The translations under genes and the position numbers were made by a program. From a virus, in IMG/VR virus record IMGVR_UViG_3300046820_001905, positions 1 to 45,740 of that record: a stretch of 45,740 nucleotides of DNA; one strand, written 5' to 3'. The notes under the pieces were generated by a model. It saw nothing but the letters and a program-made list of their open reading frames with translations, made no database searches and was not told the DNA's origin. The stretch's first letter is position 1; each line of letters opens with the position of its first letter. Below are positions 23,813-30,763 of the stretch, piece after piece.

Positions 23813-24532
23813 ATGTTAGATATCAATCAATTTAAAACAGCAGTACAGAAGTATGACCTTGAAAGACCAAATCTTTTCAAGGTAGAGTTTGGTATGCCTA
23901 AATTCTACAGCGATACTGATTTCAAAAATATTGTTGATTTAGTGGATAATGGTAGGCATATATCTTTACTTTGTAGAACAGCCACTATGCCAGGTAGAAG
24001 TCTTGCACTTGCAGACACTAAACGATATGGTATTGGTCCTTCAATAAGAATGCCTACTGGTGGTAATATTGAAGAGTTCTCTCTCACCTTCTTAAACGAT
24101 GCTGATAGTAGAACCTGGTTGTTCTTCCATAAGTGGATGGAGTACATCTACCCAATGGGTCCAACTCAGAATAACCAAGGCGTCGTACCAGGTCAGCTTA
24201 CATCACATCAGCTTAAATTTAAAGACCGTTACCAGGCAGATATAACCCTGACCACCTATGGTGGTGAGAAGGGCAAGTATTCTGGTAGCGGTATTGTTAG
24301 TGCACTTATATCTGCGGTATCATCTGCAGCAGGAGTACCTTTCATTGGATCCCTACTCAATAGTAGATCAATGAAGCAATTTAAGCTTAAAGAAAAACGA
24401 AAAGTAACGTTTTATAAAGCATTCCCAACATCTTTGAGTTCTTTGAACTACAGTGCTGATCAATCGGACTCATTCAGCGAATTCACTGTTGGTTTCACAT
24501 TTGTTAATTACGCAGGAAAAATAACATTCTAA
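23813..24532 (+). CDS. 54: Tail tube initiator, gp54-like (gp19 tube fold)
   Basis: 239 residues. RPNLFKVEFGMP near residue 20, ATMPGRSLA near 60, FLNDADSRTWLFFHKWMEYI, and the late YKAFPTSLSSLNYSADQSDS followed by EFTVGFTFVNYAGK are typical of the T4 tube family (gp19/gp54). It is longer than the tube protein (~163) and shorter than T4 gp54 (~320). The baseplate context favours the initiator role. A second tube paralogue is not in the window. Confidence 0.8.
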   Translation: MLDINQFKTAVQKYDLERPNLFKVEFGMPKFYSDTDFKNIVDLVDNGRHISLLCRTATMPGRSLALADTKRYGIGPSIRMPTGGNIEEFSLTFLNDADSRTWLFFHKWMEYIYPMGPTQNNQGVVPGQLTSHQLKFKDRYQADITLTTYGGEKGKYSGSGIVSALISAVSSAAGVPFIGSLLNSRSMKQFKLKEKRKVTFYKAFPTSLSSLNYSADQSDSFSEFTVGFTFVNYAGKITF

Positions 24533-24544
24533 TAGGAGTTTATT

Positions 24545-25255
24545 ATGGCTTTACCTAAGCTAATGCATCCAACTTTTGATTTGACAGTACCATCAACCAA
24601 GAAGAAAGTTAAATTTAGACCATTCCTGGTCAAAGAAGAAAAACTACTGCTGATGGCTAAGCAGAGTGAAGAGTCAGCTGATATTACAAACGTGCTTAGA
24701 CAGATTGTATCTAACTGTGATGTAGAGTCAGTGCTAAAGATAGATGATCTAGCATCTTTTGATATTGAGTATTTGTTTCTTAAACTAAGATCAAAGTCAG
24801 TAAACAACATTATTGATCTTGCATATACCGATTATGAAGATGATGAGGTGTATAAGTTTCAGATAGATCTAGATGACGTTGAAATCACGTTCAATAAAGA
24901 TCATAAGAATGTTATTGCTCTCACTGAAGAGTCAGGCATAGTAATGAAGTATCCAACAGTTGATCTGATGTCTGAAGTATTGAAGCAAGAGGATCTTTCT
25001 AGCATTCTATTTGTAATGATTAAAGGATGCCTAGATCAATATTATGACGGTGATAAGATTGTAATGTTCAAAGATAGTAATACGGAAGAGATTGATGAGT
25101 TTGTAGACAATCTTCCAACTTCCGTACTGAAGGACTTTGAAGTGTTTTTTGATACGATGCCTAGACTATATCATAAGTTAGAATACAAGAATAAGAAGGG
25201 TACAGATCGTACCATCGAGCTAAGAACACTCGAAGATTTTTTTACGTTGCGCTGA
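24545..25255 (+). CDS. 26: Baseplate hub assembly / tail chaperone protein, gp26-like (zero-frame product)
   Basis: 236 residues, with ribosome site AGGAG six bases before the ATG. ALPKLMHPTFDLTVPSTKKK, RPFLVKEEKLLLMAKQS, LRQIVSNC and ELRTLEDFF match the gp26 family (Pfam T4 baseplate protein, PF12322). The last codons contain a run of seven T (25237-25243) in heptamer phase T TTT TTT, followed by a hairpin that covers the TGA stop. Part of the ribosomes is therefore predicted to slip -1 and make a 291-residue gp26-gp51 fusion. The gene lies directly before the tape measure, where many tailed phages encode their frameshifted tail assembly chaperones. Confidence 0.88.
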   Translation: MALPKLMHPTFDLTVPSTKKKVKFRPFLVKEEKLLLMAKQSEESADITNVLRQIVSNCDVESVLKIDDLASFDIEYLFLKLRSKSVNNIIDLAYTDYEDDEVYKFQIDLDDVEITFNKDHKNVIALTEESGIVMKYPTVDLMSEVLKQEDLSSILFVMIKGCLDQYYDGDKIVMFKDSNTEEIDEFVDNLPTSVLKDFEVFFDTMPRLYHKLEYKNKKGTDRTIELRTLEDFFTLR

Positions 25256-25306
25256 GCCATAACAGCCTTGAAAACTACTATAACGTAGTTTTTATTCTGG
25301 CTCAGC
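25237..25306 (+). promoter_or_regulatory. Programmed -1 ribosomal frameshift signal
   Basis: The slippery heptamer T TTT TTT at 25237-25243 is in the correct zero-frame phase (GAT TTT TTT ACG). A 7-base spacer (ACGTTGC) follows. Then comes an 8-bp stem GCTGAGCC (25251-25258) with GGCTCAGC (25299-25306). Nested inside is a second perfect 8-bp stem, AAAACTAC (25271-25278) with GTAGTTTT (25285-25292). The zero-frame stop TGA (25253-25255) is inside the outer stem. Spacer length and stem position are those of known -1 sites. Confidence 0.85.
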
Positions 25307-25419
25307 ATCATCATTATCAAATTTCAGAAATAGAGAACCTGATTGCCTTTGAAAGAGATATTTACTTACAAATGTTATCAGACCATGTCAAAAAACAAGA
25401 ACAAATGGTTAGAGAATAA
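25243..25419 (+). CDS. 51: gp51-like extension reached only by -1 frameshift from gp26
   Basis: 58 codons in the -1 frame after the slippery run, ending at TAA 25417-25419. The product (LSHNSLENYYNVVFILAQ, HHHYQISEIENLIAFERDIY, then MLSDHVKKQEQ) is not random. It resembles short gp51-like proteins of marine T4-like phages. The frame has no usable ATG, GTG or TTG except an internal ATG near the end, so a separate start is unlikely. Its stop shares a base with the tape-measure ATG (TAATG), which argues that ribosomes really translate it. The fusion would be 233 + 58 = 291 residues. The gp51 name is less certain than the frameshift. Confidence 0.75.
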   Translation, partial: YVALSHNSLENYYNVVFILAQHHHYQISEIENLIAFERDIYLQMLSDHVKKQEQMVRE

Positions 25420-27848
25420 TGGCAGCTGATCCGAACAGAGATACATTCCTCAAGCAGTTGAGTGAGATGCGTTCACTACGCTCTCAGCAAATGCAGGCTG
25501 GTGGCCAGCAGATGCAAGCGCTTGGTAGACAAACAGCTATAATGTCTAGCATGAATAGTAATATTGCTAGACAGTCTCAGCAGATCTCCCAAATGAACAA
25601 CTCGCTGTCGCGCGGATTCTCTGGTCTTGCTAAATCTGTTAGTGGTCTATCTTCAGCTGTAGCAAGAGGTGCTGCTAGCACGGTTGCTGCTGTTGGTAGA
25701 GGAGCTGGTGGTGCTGTTGGTAGTGCAGCTGCTGGAGCTGGACGAGTATCAGCCAGTGCAGTGTCCGGAATCACAGGTGGTATTGTATCTGCCCTGAGTT
25801 ATGCATTACCAACTGCTATTGCTGGAGTTATTGGCAAATCTCTTATCTGGGATAATATCGATGAAGATACTAAGAAAGAGATGGGTGAGAATATTGGTGG
25901 TATCTTCAAGAATGTATTTGGAGACTCACTAAAACCAGTAACTAAAGAATTAAAAGTAATGACACTAACTCTAGCTGATACGTTAGAGTCTCTTAGTGAT
26001 AGAATTGGATCAGTAGTATCAGGTATCAAAGGTAAGTTGCCAGCTCTAAAAGATGGTGCTAGAGAAACAGCATCCAATGTATCCAATGCAGCATCGAATG
26101 TAGTTGATAGTGTTAAGGATAAGATACCACGTGGTGCCAGAGTTGCAAGTATTATGGCCAGCGATGTTTCAGGTGTTGCAAAAAAGGGTGTTGAGTTAGC
26201 TCGAAGTGCGTCAGGGGTTGATACAGGAGAAGTAAAACAAGGTGTAGCCGCAGTTGGAGTTGGAGCAGTGGGTGTATCAGTAACAAAGACTCTTCAAGGT
26301 GCATCAGCTACTGCAAAAGGAGTAGAGAAAGCTGCAGGAGCTAAAAACTCTATATCAAAATTGGCTATGGATCTTCTTAAAAAAGATGGGTCGAAAATAA
26401 CCAAAGCATCTTTGTTAGCTGCAAGAGTTGTTGCTAGACTAACGCTAATGAGTGGACCTACCGTTGCTAAGTTATTAGGCATGATATTGAAGTATAAGTT
26501 GGCCAAGTACACAGCTGTTTTAAGTGTTGTTATAGAAGGTGGGATGTATTGGGTCATAACAAGTGAAATAGAAGCAATGATGCAGGAAGGAGTTCTAACT
26601 GCTGAAGAAGGTAAAGCTCTTATTGAACTAGCTAGAAAACAATCTTTATATTCAGGAGCTGGCGCTCTTGCACTTGGTGGTATTGGAGCTGCAGCAGGTA
26701 GTGGTCTTTTATCAATACCGTTAGGTATAGCTGGGTCAGTTGCTGGAGGTATGGCTGGTAGCAAGATTGCTGAAATGACAACCAAGCTACCTGATAGCTT
26801 GAAAGAAGAATATGATGAATCTAAAGCAGAAAAGAAAATGGGAGATAGCGTTGGTGCTTTAGACGTTGCTAACAAAAGAGATAAGAAGAAACAGAAAACA
26901 AGCGCTGCTACCGTATCAAAACCTTCTGCAGGTGCAACTGAAAGCAAAGGCGAGAAGGGTAATGCTCAGAAAGCAATGGAGTTCTTTATGTCCAAAGGAT
27001 GGACTAGAGAACAGGCTGCTGGTATCGTAGGTAATTTACAAACCGAATCATCTACCTTCAGTACGGTAGAGACTGGCGATGGTGGTAAGGCTGTAGGTAT
27101 TGCTCAGTGGCATCCGGACCGCCAAGCAAGGTTCAAGGAAATATTCAAAAAAGACATTAGGGAAGCCACATTCGAAGAACAATTGGCTTTCGTTGATTAT
27201 GAGTTAAACAATCAGGAAAAGGTTGCAGGAAATAAACTCAGAGAGGCAAAATCTGCTGAAGAGGCTGCTCTTGTAATTGACGAGTATTATGAACGCTCCA
27301 AGGGTACCGGTAAGGGTAAAGGCGGAGATGCTATTAAGAAGAGACAGCAATACGCTTTAGCTCTAGTAGGTGGCAGTGCGCAGACTACAATGATGGCTGG
27401 TGGTGGTGGAGATCAAACAGCTGGTTTAAAGAGTGACCAAGTATCAGCTGCGCAGAAGCCAACAGCTGGTATGAATATATCACAGAAGATGGATTACTAT
27501 CGTGGTCAGTTGGGCGAAGATGGAGCTCAGGCATCATCTACACCTAAACCTAATGAGCAAAAGAAACCAGGTATGTTTGATAGCTTTAAGAATGCATTTA
27601 GTAGCGATGCATTCGATAAACTAACCGGTGATCTTCAGAAGGGTGTTGAAGATCTAATGAGCTTTGACATAACCTCTAAGAAGGAAGCAGCTGCCAGTGC
27701 TTCTGCTCCACCAGTTAGTGGCGGAGATACTGTTGTTAATGTTAGCGGTGGCGGTGGTAATTCCCCTCCTGCCTACAACCCGATAGCACCTGCTGCAAGC
27801 TACCAATCACAATTCACTTCACTGGCTGGTATACAACGTACAGCATAA
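25419..27848 (+). CDS. 29: Tail tape measure protein with embedded tail-lysozyme domain
   Basis: 809 residues. The N-terminal third is Gln/Met/Ser-rich and helical (QQMQAGGQQMQALGRQTAIM), then Ala/Gly-rich with hydrophobic stretches (residues ~100-145 and ~410-450) as in tape measures. Residues ~515-650 form a phage tail lysozyme-like domain: SKGWTREQAAGIVGNLQTES with a putative catalytic Glu at 543, VGIAQWHPDRQARF, and a late EYYERS. The region should be injected ahead of DNA and open the peptidoglycan. The C-terminus is a Gly/Ser/Pro-rich linker. Position after gp26/gp51 and size fit the T4 gp29 role. Confidence 0.85.
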   Translation: MAADPNRDTFLKQLSEMRSLRSQQMQAGGQQMQALGRQTAIMSSMNSNIARQSQQISQMNNSLSRGFSGLAKSVSGLSSAVARGAASTVAAVGRGAGGAVGSAAAGAGRVSASAVSGITGGIVSALSYALPTAIAGVIGKSLIWDNIDEDTKKEMGENIGGIFKNVFGDSLKPVTKELKVMTLTLADTLESLSDRIGSVVSGIKGKLPALKDGARETASNVSNAASNVVDSVKDKIPRGARVASIMASDVSGVAKKGVELARSASGVDTGEVKQGVAAVGVGAVGVSVTKTLQGASATAKGVEKAAGAKNSISKLAMDLLKKDGSKITKASLLAARVVARLTLMSGPTVAKLLGMILKYKLAKYTAVLSVVIEGGMYWVITSEIEAMMQEGVLTAEEGKALIELARKQSLYSGAGALALGGIGAAAGSGLLSIPLGIAGSVAGGMAGSKIAEMTTKLPDSLKEEYDESKAEKKMGDSVGALDVANKRDKKKQKTSAATVSKPSAGATESKGEKGNAQKAMEFFMSKGWTREQAAGIVGNLQTESSTFSTVETGDGGKAVGIAQWHPDRQARFKEIFKKDIREATFEEQLAFVDYELNNQEKVAGNKLREAKSAEEAALVIDEYYERSKGTGKGKGGDAIKKRQQYALALVGGSAQTTMMAGGGGDQTAGLKSDQVSAAQKPTAGMNISQKMDYYRGQLGEDGAQASSTPKPNEQKKPGMFDSFKNAFSSDAFDKLTGDLQKGVEDLMSFDITSKKEAAASASAPPVSGGDTVVNVSGGGGNSPPAYNPIAPAASYQSQFTSLAGIQRTA

Positions 27849-28866: not shown

Positions 28867-28895
28867 ACTATATATGGTTCTTGAAATAACGTCAA
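28867..28895 (-). promoter_or_regulatory. Sigma70-type promoter of gp32
   Basis: On the minus strand TTGACG (28890-28895) and TATAGT (28867-28872) are separated by exactly 17 bases. It overlaps the stop region of the upstream oxygenase gene and points at gp32. It is one of five promoters in the window with a (T/A)GTTGAC -35 box and 17-base spacing. Confidence 0.8.
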
Positions 28896-29545
28896 CTGAA
28901 TTTATCGTGTGCAGAATTGATACATGCTCCACGAAGATTGTCACATAATCTACTGTACTGCGTGAAAGTGGTCATTACGTATTTTGAATTTGAGAATGGA
29001 TGTTCAGCATAATGTGGAAACATCCAAGTACTTGGGAATATAATTATCGACCCCTTTGCTGCAGGATATCGAATATCATAGTCAGGGAATACTAGCGTGC
29101 CACCATCTGTAACATCATTAAGGTAACATAATACAGTAAGTAGCTTTTGAACACCACATCTATTATCTGCATCGGAGTGATATTTGACATTTTCTTTACT
29201 ATACTCATACCGTTTGAGTTTGAAATGTTCAAGTGAATGTTGAGCAGGATATAAACTTGCCCAAAAACCAATATCATCGATGTACTTGCGGAGTTGGTTT
29301 TCAATTAGCGTGGCTAAAGATCCATGAAACATTTTAAACGATTCATCATCTTGTAAACCAGTAAGAACAAGCTCAAGGTGACCATCCGTTTTATACTCTT
29401 CCTTATCGCCCTTACGATAGCTGGCTTCGAATGTGCGGTCAACATTCTGTTCAAAAATATCGATAAGGCTGTCACAGATAGAATCTGGTATAGCCTTTTC
29501 GTATAGTCGGATAAAGTGAGCGGTATCTTTTTTATTTGTGTTCAT
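28892..29545 (-). CDS. 2OG-Fe(II) oxygenase (prolyl-4-hydroxylase-like), copy 1
   Basis: 217 residues. It has the full double-stranded beta-helix iron triad: H123-x-D125 (YHSDADNRC), H178 (WMFPHYAEHP) and a 2-oxoglutarate-binding Lys188 (SNSKYVMTTF). The LCYLNDVTDGGTLVFPD strand is typical of prolyl hydroxylase-like enzymes. The substrate is unknown; protein or DNA-linked targets are possible. It is the last of three tandem paralogues and overlaps the next copy by 14 bases. Confidence 0.85.
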   Translation of the reverse strand: MNTNKKDTAHFIRLYEKAIPDSICDSLIDIFEQNVDRTFEASYRKGDKEEYKTDGHLELVLTGLQDDESFKMFHGSLATLIENQLRKYIDDIGFWASLYPAQHSLEHFKLKRYEYSKENVKYHSDADNRCGVQKLLTVLCYLNDVTDGGTLVFPDYDIRYPAAKGSIIIFPSTWMFPHYAEHPFSNSKYVMTTFTQYSRLCDNLRGACINSAHDKFS

Positions 29546-30173
29546 GAGCAGGGTTAAGGCAAATATCAGGGTTGTTACAGAGTGTAGTAAATCTTATAAA
29601 GCTGACAAGGATATACTTGGCTGACGATATTGGTACGTTAGCTGAGTGTGGATACATCCAGCTACTTGGAAAGAGAGCAAGCGATCCTCGTTTAGGTTTG
29701 ATAGAATATCCCATATCAGGAAATACTGTCTCTCCTCCTTCTTCTACATCATTGAGGTAGAGAACAGCTGATAGAACTCTATTACCATCACACGCCTGAC
29801 TTGTATCAGCATGAGTGATGTACGTATCAATTCCCTGATTATACTTCTTCAGCAGGATTTCTTCGTAACCTCGTAAGTGCTGAGCCGGGAAGCAGTTGAC
29901 GTCGTAGTTTAGAGTATGAATGTAATCTTGTAAGCAGCGTTCAAGGCAAACACCAATATTACGATGAATTGCTTTCATACTCTCATCTTGGCACATAGAT
30001 GTGAATGACATCTTCTTTGGCTGAGATCCCTGATCAAGGTATTTGCTAGCATATTGATAAGCAGCTTCCTCGTTCTCATCATATACACTGATAAGAAACT
30101 CACATATCTCTGAAGGTATTGTGTTTGGATATACCTTGATATAATCTGTTAATGAATTCATTTGATTAGACAC
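29532..30173 (-). CDS. 2OG-Fe(II) oxygenase (prolyl-4-hydroxylase-like), copy 2
   Basis: 213 residues and paralogous to its two neighbours. Key residues: H121-x-D123 (ITHADTSQ), H176 (WMYPHSANVP) and K186 (SAKYILVSF). The region VLYLNDVEEGGETVFPDMGY aligns with copy 1 and copy 3. All catalytic positions are kept, so it should be active. It overlaps copy 1 by 14 bases and copy 3 by 16 bases, so the three are one translational unit. Confidence 0.85.
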   Translation of the reverse strand: MSNQMNSLTDYIKVYPNTIPSEICEFLISVYDENEEAAYQYASKYLDQGSQPKKMSFTSMCQDESMKAIHRNIGVCLERCLQDYIHTLNYDVNCFPAQHLRGYEEILLKKYNQGIDTYITHADTSQACDGNRVLSAVLYLNDVEEGGETVFPDMGYSIKPKRGSLALFPSSWMYPHSANVPISSAKYILVSFIRFTTLCNNPDICLNPAHEHK

Positions 30174-30763
30174 CCGTTACAGTCTTTACAATTGCTATAG
30201 TGAAGATTGGTTGCTAGTAGATACTTAGGACCGGATATAGGTTTCTTACCTGCATGTGGAAAGAACCAATATGGAGGGAACATTACTACTCTACCCTTCT
30301 TTGGTTTGATATTGATACCAAAATCTAAGAACTCTGTCTCCCCACCTTCATCAACATCATTGAGGTAGCAAAATATATTCATAAAGCGAACGCTACTACA
30401 AACACTATCAACATCACAGTGTGGTTGAAACTGATCTATGTCATTATTCTCATACTTCTTTATACGAAGATGCTCGAATGCATAATTCTTAGGAAAGAAG
30501 TTTTGTTGGAAAGGAACTGAGTTCTTATAATCAATGGCAATCTTGTTGAATATCATCGCCACATGATTATTGAATCGTTGATGTTCTGGTTCGGAAGAGA
30601 ACGTGGTATAGATCAGTTCTGTGAAGTCAGGTGCTTGCTCATAATCATTACCGGCATATCTTTTGGCATGCCCTAAGTTGTCGTTGTAAAAATCAACAAA
30701 GTAGTCGCAATACACATCCGGTACTGCATTGTCGTACGTTTTAATTAATTCTGTGATGTTCAT
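30158..30763 (-). CDS. 2OG-Fe(II) oxygenase (prolyl-4-hydroxylase-like), copy 3
   Basis: 201 residues. Key residues: H115-x-D117 (QPHCDVDS), H170 (WFFPHAGKKP) and K180 (GPKYLLATN). FCYLNDVDEGGETEFLDFGI and IKPKKGRVVMFPP complete the family core. It ends in a Cys-rich tail (CKDCNGC), and the other copies also carry two C-terminal cysteines. It lies immediately after gp59 with a 1-base gap. Three different but complete enzymes suggest different substrates rather than dosage (inference). Confidence 0.85.
   Translation of the reverse strand: MNITELIKTYDNAVPDVYCDYFVDFYNDNLGHAKRYAGNDYEQAPDFTELIYTTFSSEPEHQRFNNHVAMIFNKIAIDYKNSVPFQQNFFPKNYAFEHLRIKKYENNDIDQFQPHCDVDSVCSSVRFMNIFCYLNDVDEGGETEFLDFGINIKPKKGRVVMFPPYWFFPHAGKKPISGPKYLLATNLHYSNCKDCNGCLIK

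Follow-up and report, generated by a model that had tools for sequence, protein, structure and literature searches.

In phage lambda, the gene for the tail tube is followed by a short open reading frame, a second, overlapping reading frame and then the tape measure gene (V-G-T-H), and one signal gives rise to both the short and the long product (G/G-T); the slippery heptamer there is G GGA AAG. Among T4-like phages, Vladimirov and colleagues reportedly found frameshifting conserved in several groups, with T4 itself using genes 26 and 51. Poly-T slippery sequences are described as known −1 signals in the TAC-N genes (TAC, tail assembly chaperone) of T4-like phages (PMC12846349), and some T4-like phages encode the short form and a fused long form as separate genes (PMC10885494); for these points the relevant passages of both papers cite Vladimirov, Gautam and Davidson (2022, Virology 566:9-15). 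A sequence-only reading of the DNA analysed here, which had proposed a frameshift between gp26 and gp51, was therefore wrong in holding that no case had been described for this pair. The TAC locus of the Vandenendeviridae and Andersonviridae likewise has a −1 frameshift that is conserved and that lies at a poly-T motif before the tape measure gene (PMC12846349); these are different phage families, and their motif, GTTTTT, is one T shorter.

The stretch of DNA analysed here, referred to below as the window, comprises 45,740 bases of an IMG/VR virus record and carries a T4-like tail module with wedge, hub, tail tube cap, head closure, DNA end protector and single-stranded DNA-binding genes. On its plus strand, the order is tail tube, short form, long form and tape measure, the same as in lambda. 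The gp19-like tail tube gene (23813-24532; phrog_45, tail tube, 6.4e-37) is followed at 24545-25255 by a gp26-like reading frame of 236 residues, the short form or TAC-N (PF12322, 4.8e-51; phrog_150, 5.4e-57), which is kept in 168 loci. In the zero frame it ends GAA GAT TTT TTT ACG TTG CGC TGA, and near this end lie a canonical slippery heptamer in zero-frame phase, T TTT TTT (25237-25243), which differs from that of lambda, a 7-nt spacer (25244-25250) and the TGA stop of the short form (25253-25255); all three are where the sequence-only reading had placed them. The gp51-like frame, or TAC-C, extends in −1 from 25237 to 25419 (60 codons and a TAA), and its stop overlaps the tape measure start in the sequence TAATG at 25417-25421, i.e., two overlapping reading frames immediately precede the tape measure gene. 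The tape measure protein itself (25419-27848, plus strand, 809 residues; phrog_9570, tape measure, 7e-23) contains a tail lysozyme domain in its C-terminal half (PF18013, 4.7e-29). Elsewhere in the window, on the minus strand at 28892-30763, three tandem genes (28892-29545, 29532-30173 and 30158-30763) resemble copies of one 2OG-Fe(II) oxygenase family; a profile scan of the outer two matched both to phrog_61 at 1e-30 or better.

The locus very probably represents one tail assembly chaperone gene that gives two products via a −1 frameshift at the junction of the gp26-like and gp51-like frames. Most ribosomes would terminate at the TGA at 25253, where gp26 ends, and release the short form of 236 residues, and a minority would be slowed at a nested hairpin about 7 nt downstream of the heptamer and move back by one base on T TTT TTT, where both phenylalanine tRNAs could re-pair with UUU. 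These slipped ribosomes would then read 58 more codons, resulting in a long form of about 290 residues with the gp51-like C-terminal domain. If the two products act as G and GT do in lambda, the short form should coat the tape measure protein, the product of the gene that follows, and tail tube subunits should be recruited by the long form.

The conservation of the heptamer was followed in loci drawn from two IMG/VR scans and in 16 GenBank phage loci. Both parts and the heptamer were present in 168 loci, the window included, which were reduced to 87 by dereplication at 85% nucleotide identity. Across a large divergence (34-89% amino-acid identity to the window), every one of the 87 had T TTT TTN in phase where the gp26-like frame ends, with the gp51-like frame always in −1; the last base of the heptamer was T in 43 loci, C in 43 and G in one, and the gp26 stop followed at a distance of 0-8 codons. 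The codon preceding the phenylalanine pair was GAT, AGT, AAT, TCT or ACT throughout, and never the synonym ending in C. Thus, [DNST]-F was spelled with T TTT in 87 of 87 cases at the site versus 99 of 272 elsewhere in the same genes, with a formal probability of about 1e-29 that overstates independence because the loci are related. Cultured phages with the heptamer and the −1 frame include S-PM2, S-ShM2, phiM12, HTVC008M, Aeh1, phiW-14 and Vibrio V05. A genome-wide excess of T-heptamers was also sought in the window and none was found, TTTTTTY being below expectation (10 copies versus a shuffle mean of 24). T-heptamers alone are not rare, and what puts the site far beyond chance is that its position is conserved, that it is in phase and that its partner frame lies in −1. 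Judged from the sequences, the slip is almost certainly real, and we infer that it takes place on the ribosome and at a rate that leaves most chains short. Two loci departed from the common pattern in other ways: in L021 (2244-3300) a frame change interrupts the gp26-like frame short of its end, probably through an assembly error, with an AGT TTT TTC site and the gp51-like frame still present downstream of the break, and in Stenotrophomonas phage BUCT608 (L166) the heptamer is present and the second part is below detection.

Downstream of the spacer, the window can form a nested hairpin with a minimum free energy of −24.8 kcal/mol (z −4.7 against dinucleotide shuffles), and its fold has a z of about −6 against synonymous-codon recoding of the −1 frame. 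The outer stem pairs 25251-25259 with 25298-25306 and the inner stem 25269-25278 with 25285-25294; the sequence-only reading had recognized both, with the stop correctly placed inside the outer one, and had made each 8 bp long, where they are in fact 9 and 10 bp. Covariation was assessed in 20 distinct sequences of the window's clade, in which 99.4% of the cells of the outer stem were paired, with double changes at two pairs, as were 87.5% of those of the inner stem, with double changes at three. For both stems together (93.2% of cells paired, five pairs, 15 double-changed cells), this covariation was reached in 0 of 500 shuffles, and slid controls gave 0-7. Covariation thus supports both stems, and with them a stimulatory RNA element, in the window's clade. 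The element is not universal: the fold z under synonymous recoding was below −2 in 40 of the 87 loci, and many AT-rich loci showed no such fold. The comparison of relatives that had been suggested as a check bore out the heptamer in all 87 loci and the covarying stems in the clade of the window.

A second candidate element lies upstream. In 26 of the 27 loci that have a GAGG, this Shine-Dalgarno-like sequence ends 9-10 nt before the heptamer, and GAGG or GGAGG was seen at that distance in cyanophage-type loci, e.g., L002, L003, L027 and L040. Its placement resembles that of the Shine-Dalgarno-like stimulator of frameshifting in E. coli dnaX. When the E-G codons were pooled, GAG was used over GAA in 20 of 26 cases versus 26% elsewhere (p 7e-8, ignoring relatedness); per locus, the signal was weak, with 6 of 87 loci at p ≤ 0.05 in synonymous shuffles. 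Neither a hairpin nor a Shine-Dalgarno-like element was found in 32 of the 87 loci, and L114, L127, L129, L132 and similar loci keep the heptamer with neither a downstream hairpin nor a Shine-Dalgarno-like element found. Over all loci, a trade-off between the two elements did not reach significance (Fisher p 0.13). It may be, with chances that fall slightly short of even, that T4-like phages share an old slippery site that has hardly varied while its stimulator is replaced by clade, i.e., a covarying nested double hairpin in the clade of the window, an upstream GAGG in many cyanophage-type loci and apparently neither in the 32 loci.

Poly-T runs can also cause slippage of the transcript. RNA polymerase could add an extra U to some mRNAs and so join the two frames with no slip of the ribosome, and since the run in the window is exactly 7 T (8 T in 15 of the 87 relatives), the long form could also arise in this way. 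This explanation is improbable, because 44 of the 87 loci have only 6 T, closed by C or G, because the run always lies in the X XXY YYZ phase, for which a polymerase has no need, and because the covarying downstream hairpins and the 7-nt spacer fit a stalling of the ribosome. A −1 slip of the ribosome is thus the preferred explanation, and it makes the second frame the C-terminal part of the long product.

In the interval that separates the gp26-like frame from the tape measure gene, stops interrupt the zero frame, and the −1 frame alone stays open, running from the heptamer as far as the TAA at 25417-25419 (60 codons with the two phenylalanines, 58 after them). Its translation from 25246 matches phrog_634 (“baseplate hub assembly catalyst”, gp51) at 1e-19, and the domain was found by tblastn in 545 phage records. 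Compared with 14 close relatives, the differences at codon positions 1, 2 and 3 numbered 185, 57 and 317; by this measure, the −1 frame does code for protein and is under purifying selection. No other part of the window encodes the gp51-like helical C-terminal domain. No ATG, GTG or TTG occurs in the first 15 codons, and the sequence-only description of a start-less frame that ends in the TAATG shared with the tape measure gene has held up. The first residues (FF..LSHNSLENYY) are conserved in the alignment of relatives.

In most GenBank records, gp51 is instead a separate protein, which would be made by coupled reinitiation after the gp26 stop. For such a start there is a −1-frame ATG in or near the junction in 39 of the 87 loci, which annotators have used in S-ShM2 and S-PM2, just past the gp26 stop. 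Vibrio phage D504 (L167, 3100-3340), with a gp26-like gene that has lost the heptamer and a gp51-like tail in −1 that has an ATG of its own, within an overlapping TAATG, would also suit reinitiation, and a loss of frameshifting in this one lineage is possible. As an account of the locus in general, reinitiation is nevertheless quite improbable: in 44 of the 87 loci, the window included, the −1 frame has no ATG, GTG or TTG between its upstream stop and the fifteenth codon after the heptamer, and yet the first residues are conserved; where a usable nearby start is lacking, as in HTVC008M, Melnitz and Mosig, the annotated gene begins well inside the conserved domain; and the heptamer would be left unexplained. 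For the window, a separate gp51 start was rejected, as there is no standard start codon. The frameshift join is annotated in none of the 16 T4-like phage records examined (T4 apart); gp51 is either missing from them or annotated as a gene of its own, whose start has often been set at an arbitrary internal codon. A sequencing error in the T run, a homopolymer in a metagenomic contig, that splits one continuous gene, which the sequence-only reading had itself named as fatal to its proposal, can be dismissed, since the split and its phase recur in all 87 relatives, which come from many assemblies and from cultured phages, and 44 of these have a run of only 6 T.

That the frameshifted gene works like lambda G/GT, with predicted short and long tail assembly chaperones before the tape measure gene, is well supported, in agreement with the original proposal. 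An hhalign comparison with lambda G alone detected no similarity (E 0.34), an AF2 model (pLDDT 88.6) had no meaningful fold match in the PDB (best E 0.7) and matched, among viral predicted structures, mostly other gp26/hub proteins and uncharacterised ones, and sequence searches of solved structures gave nothing meaningful. The probable chaperone role therefore rests on position, architecture and literature, i.e., on the synteny with lambda, the shared logic and the cited work. Counting against it, T4 gp26 and gp51 are described as chaperones of hub assembly and not of the tape measure (PMC3004832).

The locus matches both parts of the T4 gp26/gp51 family (PF12322, phrog_150 and phrog_634). 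T4 gp26 aligns to the short part of phrog_150 only (14-235 of 282) and is without a −1-type C-terminal domain, whereas T4 gp51 aligns to 13-280 of the same profile, to phrog_634 and, over its last 40 residues, to the −1 domain (hhalign E 1.8e-4); it is a gp26-like domain and a C-terminal domain fused in one frame. Because T4 gp51 matches the whole profile, short part and C-terminal part, it corresponds to the frameshifted long product. The proposal that the gp26/gp51 pair is the counterpart of G/GT is supported, with the correction that the T4 proteins are not simply its two halves. In T4, genes 26 and 51 are separate and on opposite strands, in contrast to the overlapping frames of the window, and gene 26 reads GAG TTC TTT GAG, with no slippery heptamer; the short and the long form therefore each have a gene of their own. 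Frameshifting has there given way to duplication and fusion, and T4 fits the published separate-gene arrangement, with gp26 as the short form and gp51 as the fusion.

The site and its relatives show how T4-like records are to be annotated at this locus. They also form a natural series, with the same heptamer, different stimulators and, in T4, duplicated genes instead, which could serve to measure how the ratio of short to long form is set and to study the replacement of a frameshift by gene duplication. The closest described system is that of the T4-like tail assembly chaperones of Vladimirov et al. (2022), which, as summarised in the papers that cite it, has the same gp26-like TAC-N, gp51-like TAC-C, poly-T signal and −1 frame, and short and fused long genes in T4. 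Relative to that study, the clade-dependent stimulator is possibly new. Since the mechanism itself is already published for T4-like phages, the window represents a good further example of it rather than a new kind.
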